From contig NZ_CP116967.1 in assembly GCF_032050975.1 (NCBI RefSeq), forward strand, positions 2,167,001 through 2,231,000: a DNA stretch of 64,000 nt, written 5' to 3'. Of this stretch, positions 46,269-59,711 are shown in pieces; the stretch's first letter is position 1; each line of letters starts with the position of its first letter. Both the position numbers and the translations under genes were made by a program. Under the pieces are notes generated by a model. The model was not told the origin of the DNA. It was given only the letters and a program-made list of their open reading frames with translations, and made no database searches. This DNA comes from Candidatus Nitrospira allomarina. GTDB taxonomy: Bacteria > Nitrospirota > Nitrospiria > Nitrospirales > UBA8639.

Positions 46269-47921
46269 TCAATTGTTTCGTAAGCTCTCCAATTGTTGTC
46301 GAACAACCGGGTCGCGCAATTTTTTTAAGGCGTTGGTTTCGATCTGTCTGATCCGTTCCCGAGTAACCCCTAAGGTTTGTCCGATTTCTTCCAATGTGGA
46401 CTCTTCGTCGTACCCGATGCCAAACCGCATGCGAAGAATGCGTTCCTCACGTGGGTTCAAGGCTTTCAGGAGGCGGGAGATGGCGGCCTTCGAGCTGAAT
46501 TCCTCCGAAATCTTTAAAGGTGAAGGCGCTTCGTGATCCTCAAGAATATCCCCGAACGTCCCCTCACCCTGCTCATCCAACGGGGAGTCCAGAGAAACGG
46601 GGTCATAGGAGCCCTCCAAGATTCCTTGTACTTTTGCAACAGGTAGCCCGATGGTTTCCGCCAGTTCTTGAAGAGTCGGCGTCCGTCTTAATCGTTGAGT
46701 AAGATGCTGTGAGGTCTTCTTGATTTTTTGGGTAATCTCATAGATATGTACGGGCCTTCGAATCGTATTCCCTTTTTCGGCAATGGCTCTGGTGATGCCC
46801 TGTCGAATCCACCATGTCGCATAGGTGCTAAACTTATAGCCACGTGCATAATCAAATTTATCGACCGCTCTCATCAACCCAATGTTGCCCTCTTGGATTA
46901 AATCCAAAAAATGCAACCCGCGGTTCGTGTAGTGCTTGGCCACACTCACGACTAATCGCAGATTGGCTTCAACCATTTTGGCTTTTGCCTGATGAACCTG
47001 GGCGACGGTCTGTTCAAGCATTCTACAGGATTGCAAATATTCCAGGTGCGGCATCAAGATAAGGGACTCCTCGATTTCCCGAATACGTGCCAGAGCTTTT
47101 CTGGAGTCATCCCCGGGTTGTTTGCGGCGGCTGGTTTCCAAAAACTGTTGGTGGGTGAGAATTTCTTCTTTAATCTGGTGAATTTCCTGAATCAGGGTTT
47201 CCTGTACGTCAGGGCGCAAGTTCAAGGCATCTATTCTTTTGATCAGTTGTTGAATGGGTTTTTTTAAGGAGGAAGAAGTACAAAAAGTATCTGGTGCGGA
47301 CCCAGGCATGCCCAGACGTTGCGCAAAATGGGACAAAAATGGTTTGGCTAAACGAGCGATGGCATCCAGATGCTTGAGAGTCTTGTCGAAATTATGTCCT
47401 GCCTCGGGCCGGTTTCCGGATGCAGGAGTTTCGTCTTCGGAACCGGCTGCAGCGCTCATGATGACGAGATTACTGACACGGAGGTCTCCTGTCTGCAACT
47501 GATCCCGAAGTGCAAGGAGACGAACGAGGGTGACGGGTAAACTGAAAAGAGTTGCGACCAGGTTATTGGTCCCCTCTTTGATCTGTTGAGCAAGCTGGAA
47601 CTCTGCATTTCGTGTTAACAGCGGGACTCGACCAATGTCTTTTAAAAAGAGGGGGATCGTCATGTCGGTGGTGACGGCGTCCTCATGATGTTGACGGGGA
47701 GGTTCCATGAATTCGTCAGGATAGGAGTCTGGCATCTTATTGCCGGTCTTCCGACCCCTTTCCTCAAAAGAGGAGCGAAAAGGTTGAAGGGAGGTTGATG
47801 ATTCCAGAGAAGCACCAGATGAATACATCAGGCCATCCTGTGGGAGGGAGTAATTTTTCAAGACCCGTCTATTCTTTCCCGAGCGTTGCAAGGGTTGCTG
47901 TAATAATTCATTTGATGCCAT
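46269..47921 (-). CDS. RpoD-like sigma-70 factor
   Basis: With start MASNELL (47921) the protein has 550 residues. It has a region 1.2-like segment ([30 protein letters not shown]), a long non-conserved insert, region 2 ([43 protein letters not shown]...[14 protein letters not shown]), region 3 ([24 protein letters not shown]) and region 4 with the helix-turn-helix [21 protein letters not shown]. The -10 and -35 recognition helices are close to primary sigma factors. The divergent [17 protein letters not shown] and the unconserved N-terminal 80 residues suggest a second, group 2-type RpoD, perhaps for stress. Confidence 0.92.
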
Positions 47922-48071: not shown

Positions 48072-48127
48072 GTGTGTGTTCCACAATGGGATCCCGTCTA
48101 ACATTTTTTTTCAATTGACGTGCCCTG
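48072..48127. repeat. Segment repeated at 31972-32028
   Basis: This is the partner of the 57-base segment described at 31972. It covers the stop codon and downstream flank of the zinc-ribbon gene at 48111. Confidence 0.5.
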
Positions 48128-48323
48128 AGGAAAATTGGAGTTCCTTTTTATTACTCTGTTCATTTTTCATTCCACGGGCTTTGAGAATGGTCGTATCTAC
48201 CGTTTCTCCACAATTGAGGCACCTCAGTACTTCTAGATGGTAAAACTGCCCGTCGAGATTATAAATGCTATCTCGCACTAATAAGCCTTTACACCGTTGG
48301 CATTTCATCATCTCAGTTGTCAT
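48111..48323 (-). CDS. Small zinc-ribbon protein, copy 1
   Basis: This 70-residue protein has two CxxC knuckles: MKCQRCKGLLVRDSIYNLDGQFYHLEVLRCLNCGETVD. The spacing (CxxC-n27-CxxC) fits a single zinc ribbon. The C-terminus is polar and Lys-rich. The start MTTEMM at 48323 has AAAAGGAG upstream at 12 bases. The 46-bp operator block 48381-48426 lies upstream, and an HxlR regulator faces away on the other side. Two paralogues are at 50060 and 57889. The function is unknown; such ribbons may bind nucleic acid or protein. Confidence 0.8.
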   Translation of the reverse strand: MTTEMMKCQRCKGLLVRDSIYNLDGQFYHLEVLRCLNCGETVDTTILKARGMKNEQSNKKELQFSSGHVN

Positions 48324-48380
48324 GAAATTATTTACTCCTTTTGGAAGCATCCACTTGCACCTTAACCCCACGATAGTTAT

Positions 48381-48426
48381 GATAAGTAACTAGTTACAAA
48401 AGTAAAGTAGGTACCATAAAGTAACC
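48381..48426. promoter_or_regulatory. Operator block, copy 1 (palindrome GTAACTAGTTAC)
   Basis: This 46-bp block between the zinc-ribbon gene and the HxlR gene matches 43 of 46 positions of 50305-50350. It contains the perfect 12-bp palindrome GTAACTAGTTAC at 48386-48397 and a second related stretch (TAAAGTAAC) that runs up to the HxlR start codon. It is most simply read as the autoregulatory binding site of the HxlR protein. Confidence 0.75.
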
Positions 48427-48870
48427 ATGAAATTGCCTCCCAGTTCCTTCGGATGCCCGTTGGATTCCCTTCTTCGTGTGCTTGCCGGGCCGTGGACGAT
48501 TTACATCCTCTGCCGCCTGCATAACAATGGGGATACCCGTTTTGGCCAGCTCAAGCGCCAAATGCCGGGTATTTCATCAAAAATGTTGACGGAACGATTG
48601 CGAGCCTTGGAGAAGGCCGAAATTATCTTTCGTCACCAAGCTCCGACCATTCCTCCACAGGTGACCTATGGGCTCACGACAGAAGGCCGTGAACTCACCA
48701 CGATTCTTGATCAAATTAATACATTGGCCGGCCGATGGCAGAATCTTGAGACCAAAAAGACGGCAAACACCAACATTCAGGTAAAAGACACAAAAAGAAG
48801 AAAGACGGTAGTTCAATATTCCAGGATTCCTCCCTCCAAAAAGGAAAAACTGAACGGTAAAATTAGGTGA
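48427..48870 (+). CDS. HxlR-family transcriptional regulator
   Basis: The 147-residue winged-helix protein has the family start FGCPLDSLLRVLAGPWTIYILCRL (the Cys10-type sensor position is present), the recognition helix GISSKMLTERLRALEKAEIIFR and the wing PPQVTYGLTTEGREL. It carries a Lys-rich C-terminal tail of about 45 residues not needed for the fold. HxlR proteins respond to aldehydes, quinones or oxidants through the conserved Cys. The operator abuts its ATG, so it probably represses itself and the divergent zinc-ribbon gene. Confidence 0.92.
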   Translation: MKLPPSSFGCPLDSLLRVLAGPWTIYILCRLHNNGDTRFGQLKRQMPGISSKMLTERLRALEKAEIIFRHQAPTIPPQVTYGLTTEGRELTTILDQINTLAGRWQNLETKKTANTNIQVKDTKRRKTVVQYSRIPPSKKEKLNGKIR

Positions 48871-49295
48871 ACATGGTTTTCGCCAAAGATTGGTTGGTCT
48901 TGGCATTCAACAGGACATAGGAATTATCCCTGGAAACATGAGACAACTCTTCTTTAAATCAGTTTGAAAGACATCGGCCGAGTCATCCTCCTCACCCAAT
49001 CACTTTCTGGAATGGATGTTATATTGTCGTCGGACTTTGAATGTGGTGGAATGGAAAGCGACCGCAAATGGAGAGCATCCATGTATGGCGAGCCAGACCC
49101 GAACAGCTTTCGCTGAAAAATTTCCTGAACTGAGGAGTTTTCCGGGGGGAAAAGGACTACACCCCTTTAAGTCGAAAGGGAGAGAAATGAGTGAATCTGA
49201 ATAGGAACGTGGTTCTCTTGTTTTAAAAATCCCGCCAACTTCGGTTTTTGAAGTGTGAAGGCCGCTCCCGATTTCGGGAAGGGACGGTAGCCGGT
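48871..49295. other. Intergenic stretch without a supported gene
   Basis: A 62-codon frame (49016-49204 plus) has no similarity or ribosome site. A small palindrome TCCCGA-AA-TCGGGA (about 49268-49283) lies just beyond the PDZ gene stop on the minus strand and could be part of its 3' end. Confidence 0.35.
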
Positions 49296-49766
49296 TTAGC
49301 TTTTTTCAACCCGGACAAAGTGAAAGTTAATTCCGCCGCTGATACCCTGGTTGTCGGGGTCAGACGGTTCATAGGTTGCCACGGAAAAATTTTCTGTGGG
49401 CAACGCATTCTGAAGAGCCAGGCCGAAATCCTCCAGAGTGGTCACCTCGACAGAATTGATTTCCTTAATGAGAGCCCGGGGTTTTATGCCTGCAAGAGCC
49501 GCAGGTTTTCCCCCGATTACCTCAAAGACTACCACGCCTTTGGCACGTTCTAGACCCAGAAAATCCCGAATTTCTTCGTCCACTTCTCCCACGATGATGC
49601 CGAAATCTTCTCCCAGCTTTATGGCCTTTTCCTTGGTCATAGCCTGAACAGCCGGTTCGGCAAGAAGTAAAGAGGGCGTTCCCAACGAGAAAGCCAAGAT
49701 CATGCTCGCAATTACGCGAGCAACCTGGTGGACCCTGTGTTGGATAATCGGACGAATCATGTTCAT
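49296..49766 (-). CDS. Exported PDZ-domain protein
   Basis: With the start at MNMIRP (49766, behind GGGAGGTA) the protein has 156 residues. A signal peptide (VARVIASMILAFSLGTPSLLLA-EP) precedes one PDZ domain (GIIVGEVDEEIRDFLGLERAKGVVVFEVIGGKPAALAGIKPRALIKEINSVEVTTLEDF). No protease domain is present. A free PDZ protein in the periplasm can act as an adaptor or substrate clamp. The ORF extends upstream but without similarity. Confidence 0.8.
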   Translation of the reverse strand: MNMIRPIIQHRVHQVARVIASMILAFSLGTPSLLLAEPAVQAMTKEKAIKLGEDFGIIVGEVDEEIRDFLGLERAKGVVVFEVIGGKPAALAGIKPRALIKEINSVEVTTLEDFGLALQNALPTENFSVATYEPSDPDNQGISGGINFHFVRVEKS

Positions 49767-50059
49767 CATTACCTCCCTCTTAGCTGTACAGACTCCTGCA
49801 TCAATGGATTTACCCAAGTAATTAAGTTTTCCTTCTTCGTCGAATTCATGCAGGGCGCTGTGTTTAGACACACAACTCACCGGAATCTGTCCCTGAATAA
49901 AGGGATCATCCTGGCGGCCAAGCACTCTTGGCAATAGAAACCGGCCAGAATCATGCCCATTAGTAGGTACTGAAAGCCCAGTTCTCCAAAAATCTCCGCC
50001 ATTGGCAATTCCCTTTTTCTTTTTTATGAGACCAACTCGAAATGATTAGAATGAGGTGT

Positions 50060-50248
50060 TTAGACAAACACTTCTTCCTGTTTAGCTGTCACGTTACTCT
50101 TTTCCCCTTGACGGGTTTTCAGAAGAGTGAGATCGATGACATGACCGCAATTGAGGCATCTCCCCATTTCAATTTCTAAAAATTGTCCGTCCACGTTAAA
50201 GATACTGTCTCTCACCATGAATCCTCTGCAGCGTTGACATTCTCCCAT
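50060..50248 (-). CDS. Small zinc-ribbon protein, copy 2
   Basis: This 62-residue paralogue of the 48111 protein reads CQRCRGFMVRDSIFNVDGQFLEIEMGRCLNCGHVIDLTLLKTRQ, with both CxxC pairs in place. The start ATG 50248 has AAGGTGACAAA upstream. The operator block copy 2 lies 57 bp further upstream, the same distance as in copy 1. This indicates the promoter and gene were duplicated together. Confidence 0.8.
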   Translation of the reverse strand: MGECQRCRGFMVRDSIFNVDGQFLEIEMGRCLNCGHVIDLTLLKTRQGEKSNVTAKQEEVFV

Positions 50249-50304
50249 TTTGTCACCTTCATTAAAATTATAACCATTTTTGCCTTGGTCTTGCTTATGG
50301 TTAA

Positions 50305-50350
50305 GATAAGTAACTAGTTACTAAAGTAAAGTAGGCACTATAAAGTAACC
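50305..50350. promoter_or_regulatory. Operator block, copy 2 (palindrome GTAACTAGTTAC)
   Basis: This block is almost identical to copy 1 (three differences in 46 bases), with the palindrome at 50310-50321 and the second TAAAGTAAC box. The spacing to the zinc-ribbon start is conserved. No intact regulator gene follows on the right side. Confidence 0.75.
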
Positions 50351-50351
50351 T

Positions 50352-50420
50352 ATGAATTCACCTGAAAGTCCTTTAACTGTCAACTGGATTTCCTCCTTCC
50401 GAACCGGGAGATTCGACCAT
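50352..50420 (+). pseudogene. Possible remnant of an HxlR gene start
   Basis: One base after operator copy 2 an ATG begins MNSPESPLTVNWISSF, which lines up with the first residues of the intact HxlR gene (MKLPPSSFGCPLDSLL) at about 60-65% of bases by eye. The frame ends after about 30 codons without the helix-turn-helix. It is best explained as a decayed second HxlR. Confidence 0.45.
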
Positions 50421-50525
50421 AGAGTCTCTGGACCAGTGGCCTAAGAACGGGTAGGTTAGTTTAAAAATTTGGCGGATCGATCAGATACATCCGTTGATCC
50501 TTCGAGGGGAGGATGGTTGATCACA

Positions 50526-50903
50526 ATGCGTAGGATGGGTCAAAACAGATTTTGGGGAACGCTGGTTTTTGTGTTGGTGGTGAATTTTTCCATCGTTGAA
50601 CCCTTCCACACCACAACTGCTCAGGAAATTAACAGACCGAACCCCTCGACTCCCTCATTAGAACGCATCCAACAGGGTAAAAGCTTATATGTGGGGCCTG
50701 CCAGGTGCGTTTATCGTCATGGTCAGACCGCTTTGCGCCGTCCCCTTACCGGGCAAGAACTTTTTTCCATTATTAAATCCGCCGTGCCAGGGACATCTCA
50801 TATGCCTTTTACGTATCTGCTTTCAGACGAGCAAATATGGGATATCGTGGCGTATCAGCTTCGCGAGACATGCCAAAACGGTTGCGCCAGGGACCCATCT
50901 TAA
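50526..50903 (+). CDS. Cytochrome c-like protein with altered heme motif
   Basis: This protein of about 125 residues has a signal peptide (FWGTLVFVLVVNFSIV...TTAQ). A class I cytochrome fold follows: IQQGKSLYVGPARCVYRHGQTALRRPLTGQELFSIIKSAVPGTSHMPFTYLLSDEQIWDIVAYQL. The heme-binding CxxCH is CVYRH here: codon CGT at 50715-50717 is one transition from TGT. Axial Met (HMPF) remains. Single-cysteine attachment would be unusual, so the protein may be non-functional or the base may be misread. The exact start is uncertain; the frame opens at 50469. Confidence 0.75.
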   Translation: MRRMGQNRFWGTLVFVLVVNFSIVEPFHTTTAQEINRPNPSTPSLERIQQGKSLYVGPARCVYRHGQTALRRPLTGQELFSIIKSAVPGTSHMPFTYLLSDEQIWDIVAYQLRETCQNGCARDPS

Positions 50904-57888: not shown

Positions 57889-58080
57889 TTAGGCCACCTC
57901 TTGAGCATGTTTGGGGGAAGATTTGTATTGACAAATTTTGCGATTGGATCGGGTTGGTAAATCAAAGATTTCCCCGCAGTTCAAGCATCGCCATTCATAA
58001 ATCCAAACAGTTTTATAAATATTTTCCATATTCAGACAGGTTTCAATGACCATGAACCCATGGCAGCGGGAACATTCCAT
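57889..58080 (-). CDS. Small zinc-ribbon protein, copy 3
   Basis: This 63-residue third member of the family at 48111 and 50060 reads MECSRCHGFMVIETCLNMENIYKTVWIYEWRCLNCGEIFDLPT, with two CxxC pairs. The middle is more divergent and the C-terminus differs (NRKICQYKSSPKHAQEVA). The start at 58080 has GGGAGGCGACATT upstream. The GTAACTAGTTAC operator is absent here, so its control differs from the other two. Confidence 0.8.
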   Translation of the reverse strand: MECSRCHGFMVIETCLNMENIYKTVWIYEWRCLNCGEIFDLPTRSNRKICQYKSSPKHAQEVA

Positions 58081-59711
58081 AATGTCGCCTCCCGGTATCA
58101 ATTTTTTCTCAAAGGTATGTTCCTAAAGCAATGAAAATGTTGATCCCTCTCTTGAGCCATGCCGTCTCAAATTGTGAGCGAGGGAGAACATGGATCCGAT
58201 AACAAGGAGGAACTATCAAACCTTATGCCAAATCCTAAATATGGATTCAGGATGAAAGGAATGGCGAGAGAATAAGGAGGGGAAAGGGTGCCAATCCCAT
58301 TGAGAATAAGGCGAAACCCTACATAACCAGCAAAGAAAAATTGAACTGGAAAAACAGTTAACCTGGCATGGCACGGCGGAGAAAAGGTCGGGGATAGAAG
58401 TAAATATTAGTGGAACGCCCAGCGCACTGTGGCATCTTTCCCCAGAGCTTTCGAGCCGGTGGTCCCAGTCTTCCTCACCGGGATCCTTTCGGCACACGAA
58501 AAAATATATGACCGTGACAGGCTATCAAAGAGGGAGTATGGAGGGTATTCCTGGCAATACCGCGTGCCTGTAAGGGATCATGCCGATCAGGGCGAGTGGG
58601 GGGCAAAAATGGCGCACGCATCTCAGTGGCCCCCACACAGCCCGCAACAAATTCATCCCCGCCCGCCAAGGCACAAAGGAGGCACGGGTTGGTAAAGCTG
58701 ATGAATGCACTGTTTGCATCGTCCCCCATACCCTCATCCAAAATACTGAGGCGATCTTTTGGGAGGGTATTACGGCTCGTGGTGGTGCATGACATCTAAC
58801 CCGTTGCCCACTGGAATGTTCATGAGGTCTCCCTGTGAAAAATAGAATGGCAAATCTGAGAATGCTCCCAGAGGTGAAGGAATCAAAGAGAACAGATTAA
58901 CTCAAACACACTATGGCTAAAACCAGGGCCTAGGAAATAGGAAAAATTGATCTGGTAAGAGAACCATTCCTCAGTCTTCATGACGGTTATGACATGTCGT
59001 GTCTCTTTTATACCCGTGGTGTGGTGAGCGGGAACCCAAATCGCAAACCGGGGAAGATGCATGCCCGATCCCAGGCGTCGCAGGGTGTGTCATTGAAGGC
59101 CAGAGACAAAAAATGGCTGTACCTTTTGAATCAAAATGCCTATGATTGGACACTTCGCGAGTTGTTTCAGAATTATCTCTAGGGGGAAAGCTTCCCTGGC
59201 CACTGGAAAAAAGCAATTGCAATCCCAAAGACTTCCTGAAAAACCAAAGAGGAAAATTGCTTTTCCCCAAATGGTCTCCCCTCGGCGTCTTTTTACGAAG
59301 CAATCCAAATCCTCACGATCGCGTCCCCAGATTCCATCCCCATTCAAGATCAACATGGATTCATTTAAATTTCCCGGACTTCAGAAAGCTTTTCCCCCCG
59401 TTGGATTGAGATAGAAATGGGTTTACCAAAATCTGAAATAAGCTTAAATTGATGGATGGGAAACCTCACCCATTATTCCTTTTACCATTTAAAGGGGCCG
59501 GAGCATCACCAATGGATTTGACCGTGATTGCAATCATTGTCCCAATCGGCAAAATCTTTAAAAAGTGATCGTGTCATAACTGGTTACCTGGTGGTATGGG
59601 CATGACGAAGATTGAGGGAGATGGATATTCGATAAAAAAACTTCGGGCATGAGGTGAGGCAGGCAAAGCAAACCGTGTTTTCCGCCATTCCGCAAAGTGA
59701 GAAGAAAAGGC
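58081..59711. other. Long gene-poor stretch
   Basis: No convincing gene is visible in 1.6 kb. Overlapping frames on both strands at 58429-58800 and 58971-59414 reach about 110 codons but show no domain, and none has a good ribosome site. It could hold promoters for the zinc-ribbon gene and the histidine kinase, or old decayed sequence. Confidence 0.5.

Follow-up and report, generated by a model that had tools for sequence, protein, structure and literature searches.

HxlR-family regulators bind DNA as dimers, and in many of them the response depends on a cysteine close to the N-terminus (PMC7835342). The HxlR of Bacillus subtilis is the formaldehyde-responsive activator of hxlAB, and its sensing of formaldehyde needs a Cys11-Lys13 pair, which becomes crosslinked (PMC7835342). 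The regulator described here (PF01638 winged-helix domain, E 4.4e-25, 87.8 bits against a cut-off of 20.8) is of the same fold family and has its cysteine likewise at the start of helix 1 (structures 7bze and 7bzd were matched). Its Cys10 is invariant in 10 aligned HxlRs and matches the conserved N-terminal cysteine that serves redox sensing in the family. Lys13 of the B. subtilis protein is replaced by Leu12 (the motif is GCPLD, with Cys10 followed by Pro11-Leu12), so the formaldehyde-type pair is absent and its chemistry is not expected here. The sequence relatives of the regulator include structures of YodB, HypR (YybR), and QsrR, and with YodB, CatR, HypR, QorR, and QsrR it has in common the winged-helix HxlR domain, the invariant N-terminal cysteine, and a predicted operator in a divergent intergenic region. 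Those systems have a quinone or nitro reductase as their target, whereas the neighbours of this hxlR encode zinc-ribbon proteins, a PDZ-domain protein, and a sigma-70 factor. They also differ from the present locus in that the latter has two predicted operators, one of them left behind by a lost copy of the regulator.

Organisation of the locus

The window, i.e., the whole stretch of 64,000 nucleotides that was analysed, comes from a genome of 4.55 Mb in a single contig, whose closest named relatives are Nitrospirales MAGs, including NPIRA and UBA8639. Two blocks of 46 bp each form the control region common to a divergent pair, made of a zinc-ribbon gene (ZnA or ZnB) and of hxlR, which is intact beside block A and a relic beside block B (Table 1). 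The initial annotation had described this setting correctly: the blocks agree at 43 of 46 positions (three differences), both contain the palindrome GTAACTAGTTAC, they end 57-58 bp upstream of ZnA and ZnB, an intact hxlR (Pfam HxlR, E 4e-25) starts at the base next to block A, and an HxlR-like start beside block B decays after 30 codons, at a stop codon in 50442-50444. Its claim that non-coding DNA is better conserved than the coding copies is borne out by identities of 93% for the block and 65% for the coding DNA of the zinc-ribbon genes. It had suggested that one HxlR controls both zinc-ribbon genes, which remains the best reading, and had taken GTAACTAGTTAC for the conserved operator, which does not hold as a deep HxlR site (see below).

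Table 1. Positions in the window of the genes, promoters, and control elements of the locus
Feature	Position	Strand	Remarks
RpoD-like sigma-70 family sigma factor gene	46269..47921	-	3' of ZnA, co-oriented; NCBIfam RpoD/SigA
ZnA, small four-cysteine (CxxC...CxxC) zinc-ribbon gene	48111..48323	-	From ATG of MTTEMMKC; A clade in tree
ZnA promoter (plausible)	48379..48406	-	-35 TTTACT 48406-48401; 16-bp spacer; -10 TATCAT 48384-48379
Control block A	48381..48426	.	46 bp
Palindrome GTAACTAGTTAC, copy A	48386..48397	.	Inside ZnA promoter spacer; genus-level element
Core HxlR operator A (predicted), GTAAAGTAGGTACCATAAAGTAAC	48402..48425	+	
hxlR, intact HxlR/DUF24 regulator, Cys10 invariant	48427..48870	+	Pfam HxlR; alignment
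PDZ-domain protein gene, N-terminal signal-like stretch	49296..49769	-	3' of ZnB
Small conserved ORF between ZnB and PDZ gene	49877..50002	-	41 aa; in relatives 41-87 aa
ZnB, second four-cysteine zinc-ribbon gene	50060..50248	-	B clade in tree
ZnB promoter (plausible)	50303..50330	-	-35 TTTACT; 16-bp spacer; -10 TATCTT
Control block B	50305..50350	.	29/30 left-hand columns invariant, 8 genomes
Palindrome GTAACTAGTTAC, copy B	50310..50321	.	
Core HxlR operator B (predicted), GTAAAGTAGGCACTATAAAGTAAC	50326..50349	+	
Relic of second hxlR, start region only	50352..50444	+	48 nt alignable to hxlR

The PDZ protein and the sigma-70 factor of the unit had been overlooked by the initial annotation. The sigma factor matches NCBIfam RpoD/SigA models, all below their equivalog cut-offs, and the genome has at least five RpoD-like genes, this one included. 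ZnA is barely above the cut-off for LIM (24.1 vs 22.9 bits) and ZnB matches no Pfam family; the predicted fold of the zinc ribbon is beta-rich and zinc-ribbon-like (pLDDT 77), and a fold search returned weak matches alone, to the N-terminal domain of MqsA and to ZifS. Up to about 17 small zinc-ribbon proteins with the pattern CxRCxG...CxxCG...D, the weakest of them uncertain, are encoded in the genome (e.g., 57940-58077, reverse strand) and form a lineage-expanded family. ZnA lies about 190 bp from the sigma gene, in the same orientation, and the gap of about 290 bp between ZnB and the PDZ gene holds a small conserved ORF; we infer that ZnA is co-transcribed with the sigma gene, and ZnB with the PDZ gene. 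The product of this ORF begins with MAEIFGEL... or MTEIIG..., and its position between ZnB and the PDZ gene is kept in nine genomes. On the other side of block B, a small cytochrome-c-like gene (50526-50903, forward strand) has CVYRH here where four relatives have CIHCH or CMHCH, and because of this replacement the copy in the window has probably lost haem binding. Reuse of block B as the promoter of this gene is not general, as the gene was not found beside block B in genomes G001 and G018.

The palindrome and the predicted core operator

The exact palindrome GTAACTAGTTAC occurs twice in the 4,553,057 bp of the genome, both times in the blocks, and a search for AGTAACTAGTTACT with up to two mismatches adds a single unrelated place, against 30 for a reversed control pattern. 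The block is not widespread in unrelated places, and the idea of a specific control element survives this check. A sequence two mismatches away from the palindrome, ATAACTGGTTAC at 59576-59587, lacks the core described below and is consistent with chance.

Comparison between genomes indicates that the deeply conserved site is GTAAAGTAGGTACYNNNNAGTAAC, which adjoins the palindrome, and not the palindrome itself. Identity of the palindrome falls from 0.98 inside the genus to 0.66 between genera, whereas that of the core is 0.87 in both comparisons. The palindrome is gone from the sister genera G036 and G037, which keep the promoter hexamers and the sequence close to the hxlR start (GTAAAGTAGGTACTAAAAAGTAAC adjoins it in G036), so that the GTAAAGTAGGTACYNNNNAGTAAC core precedes hxlR in genera that lack the palindrome. 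Their HxlRs are 71-82% identical to the one in the window, with a near-identical DNA-binding region, and the recognition-helix region GISSKMLTERLR is identical throughout the genus and the sister genera. Since these two genomes retain HxlR without it, we rule out the palindrome as the main or deep HxlR operator. It is a genus-level element within the spacer of the zinc-ribbon promoter: TTTACT-16-TATNNT is found on the zinc-ribbon side of all 27 control regions (27/27) and is plausibly a sigma-70 promoter with the palindrome in its spacer.

The differing depth of conservation, together with the retention of HxlR and core in G036 and G037, could also mean that HxlR binds the core alone and that a separate regulator acts on the zinc-ribbon promoter through GTAACTAGTTAC. 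We regard this as unlikely, because the palindrome, read by eye, consists of AGTWACT-type repeats resembling those in the core, is found nowhere else in the genome, and the block that bears it is absent from the congeners without hxlR.

A number of arguments favour the core as the HxlR operator. First, a search of 21 congeners (host genome included) with up to three mismatches finds it at the cassettes only, except for one stray match in G002, comparable to what a control pattern gives. Second, when 396 genomes from the phylum were searched with up to two mismatches, eight contained the core, and seven of these have an HxlR orthologue; eight of the 396 have such an orthologue (E < 1e-50), and the core is present in 7/8 of these. 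The eighth core-bearing genome has no hxlR near its site, a chance site. Third, the core precedes HxlR relatives, taken from named genomes, in six or more further lineages (Myxococcales, alpha-proteobacteria, Acidobacteria, Sericytochromatia, Verrucomicrobia, and FCPU426), with 0-4 mismatches of 20. It is exact upstream of hxlR in two Ferrovibrio genomes and one alphaproteobacterium, and has 1-4 mismatches in Myxococcales, Rhodospirillales, Albidovulum, Acidobacteria, Sericytochromatia, Verrucomicrobium, and FCPU426. In these loci, none longer than 12 kb, only one match, weak and from a Chryseobacterium locus, does not lie upstream of the hxlR. The more distant actinobacterial HxlRs keep half of the core, AAGTACGCACTT. 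Because the core tracks hxlR in congeners, in the phylum, and in other lineages, we predict that the block is an HxlR operator; conservation next to hxlR from the genus to other phyla is what a specific operator of the HxlR/DUF24 family would display. Our search of the literature for this core operator or this hxlR locus found nothing relevant.

A sequence like AAGTACGCACTTTGAAGTGGGTGGTTAC recurs upstream of actinobacterial HxlR relatives (loci L163-L183) and looks like a divergent form of the core operator. The HxlR relatives of Ferrovibrio, Rhodospirillales, and Acidobacteria have the core before hxlR as here, but the genes divergent from core-bearing hxlRs elsewhere are different: FMN_red/flavodoxin, NmrA, DoxX, SDR, and YceI, often a quinone-reductase-like flavoprotein. 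Such genes are the usual neighbours of quinone- and electrophile-sensing HxlRs. In the window, a single base separates the core from the hxlR ATG (48411-48430), leaving no room for a Shine-Dalgarno sequence, and the hxlR mRNA may be leaderless.

Distribution and duplication of the cassette

Thirteen of the 21 congeners have an HxlR orthologue, and the block is found in exactly those 13; the other eight have neither the block nor ZnA or ZnB, several of these genomes being incomplete, but G013 and G020 98-100% complete. As block, hxlR, and zinc-ribbon gene form one contiguous locus, their co-absence could go back to one loss. Nine congeners carry a pair of blocks spaced by 1.9-2.3 kb, two A-type blocks lie on separate contigs in G015, and three genomes (G003, G007, and G014) have one block each. 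Where contigs allow it to be read, the arrangement runs sigma - ZnA - block A - hxlR - PDZ - ZnB - block B. The sigma gene lies 3' of the operator in the sister genera too. Three genomes (G007, G009, and G019) have hxlR-ZnA without an intact adjacent sigma gene, with a short sigma-like remnant in G009, which rules out the sigma factor as an obligate partner; G038 has hxlR and the sigma gene without a recognised zinc-ribbon gene.

The history suggested by these comparisons involved 1) an ancestral unit that was likely hxlR / operator / Zn-ribbon-PDZ-sigma70, an order that is probably ancestral because hxlR is divergent from an undivided Zn-PDZ-sigma series in G036, where the PDZ gene lies between the other two, and because in another Nitrospirota chromosome (L138) the zinc-ribbon and sigma genes flank a PDZ tail; 2) tandem duplication of [PDZ-Zn-operator-hxlR], as the comparison of gene orders attests; 3) in copy A, by the same comparison, loss of the PDZ gene, with hxlR, ZnA, and the downstream sigma gene kept; and 4) in copy B, on alignment evidence, retention of ZnB and the PDZ gene and decay of hxlR to a relic, with operator and promoter under purifying selection. 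A tandem copy of this stretch, minus PDZ in A and hxlR in B, yields exactly the order seen in the window. Of the relic, 48 nt can be aligned to hxlR, 32 of them identical (p 0.002 by shuffling). In the zinc-ribbon trees, which are made of short proteins and have some long branches, ZnA and ZnB form separate clades inside the genus. The zinc-ribbon gene of G003 falls in the B clade, and an intact hxlR adjoins this ZnB-type gene at the point where the contig ends. The initial annotation had proposed a comparison with related genomes for the intact second regulator; none was found among the congeners that carry both cassettes. An intermediate is seen in G005 (locus L064, contig C39), where the second hxlR is long but disrupted by indels and a stop codon in frame. 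Between hxlR and PDZ this genome retains a 3' piece of ppsA, which suggests that the duplicated stretch extended into the neighbouring ppsA; the scar was found in G005 only and not in the window itself.

Block B has been maintained while its surroundings decayed. Across eight genomes (G005 left out), its left 30 bp are invariant at 29 columns, against 12/100 in the adjacent 100 bp of hxlR relic (Fisher p 2.7e-18). The first part of the second hxlR of G005 was overwritten from copy A, by a conversion tract of about 200-250 bp that covers the block and the 5' part of hxlR, and one might suppose that gene conversion between tandem copies, instead of selection for common control, made the blocks alike in general. 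This we consider very improbable: in the other eight genomes block B has a base of its own, AGTTACTAAAG, along with B-specific neighbours, and conversion within a genome does not keep orthologous copies alike between genomes, where block B is conserved and the adjacent relic is not. Outside G005, gene conversion as the cause of the likeness is therefore rejected on these B-specific marks and is largely refuted.

Proposed control of the two transcription units

Taken as a whole, the best explanation of the locus, and one that we hold to be likely on comparative grounds, is a duplicated control region at which a single HxlR acts on both blocks, its binding being predicted. It is the best reading because a relic stands beside a conserved block, no intact second hxlR accompanies it, and block, HxlR, and zinc-ribbon genes co-occur. 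A single HxlR dimer would bind the GTAAAGTAGGTACYNNNNAGTAAC core at blocks A and B and would probably make a second contact in the promoter spacer, at the palindrome confined to the genus. The core overlaps the -35 of the zinc-ribbon promoter and abuts the hxlR start, and the palindrome lies between the -35 and the -10. HxlR would thus repress the zinc-ribbon transcripts and, since the core abuts its start codon, its own gene. Reaction of Cys10 with an oxidant or electrophile would release the repression, and both transcripts, ZnA with sigma and ZnB with PDZ, would then be induced together. We prefer repression released by thiol modification because occupancy of core and palindrome would block both the zinc-ribbon promoter and hxlR. 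The least secure parts of this model are the sign of regulation and the redox signal: a core upstream of and over the -35 also fits activation by HxlR, and two known regulators of the HxlR type activate instead of repressing, HxlR itself (PMC7835342) and HypR.

Part of the conservation of block B needs no HxlR, because the block is also the ZnB promoter. It could even have been kept solely as such, with HxlR no longer active there, as TTTACT and TATNNT lie inside the block in every one of the 27 regions and the 30 bp that vary least are largely promoter sequence. We judge this quite improbable, as a 16-bp spacer need not be conserved, yet the palindrome within it is 98% identical in the genus; the right half of the core, past the -35 (AAAGT.AC), is invariant at 8/16 right-hand columns versus 12/100 in the relic (p 0.001; the same eight genomes); and the sequence fits the HxlR core, not just any promoter.

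Implications

The locus is a clean natural case of a tandem duplication after which a regulator was lost and its operator retained; living relatives preserve intermediates, and it offers a model for the passage from a local autoregulated unit to a two-site regulon. The core motif recovered here is a candidate operator for an HxlR subfamily across phyla. To our knowledge, regulation in Nitrospira-type bacteria has hardly been described. We tentatively suggest that a thiol-based HxlR switch may have been rewired in these Nitrospirota, such that a redox signal would gate a dedicated RpoD-like sigma factor, through which transcription would be reprogrammed, together with zinc-ribbon proteins and an envelope PDZ protein, the regulon having been split by duplication over two operators that answer to one regulator. 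The recurrent pairing of hxlR with a sigma factor gene suggests a route from redox to sigma factor in Nitrospira-type bacteria.
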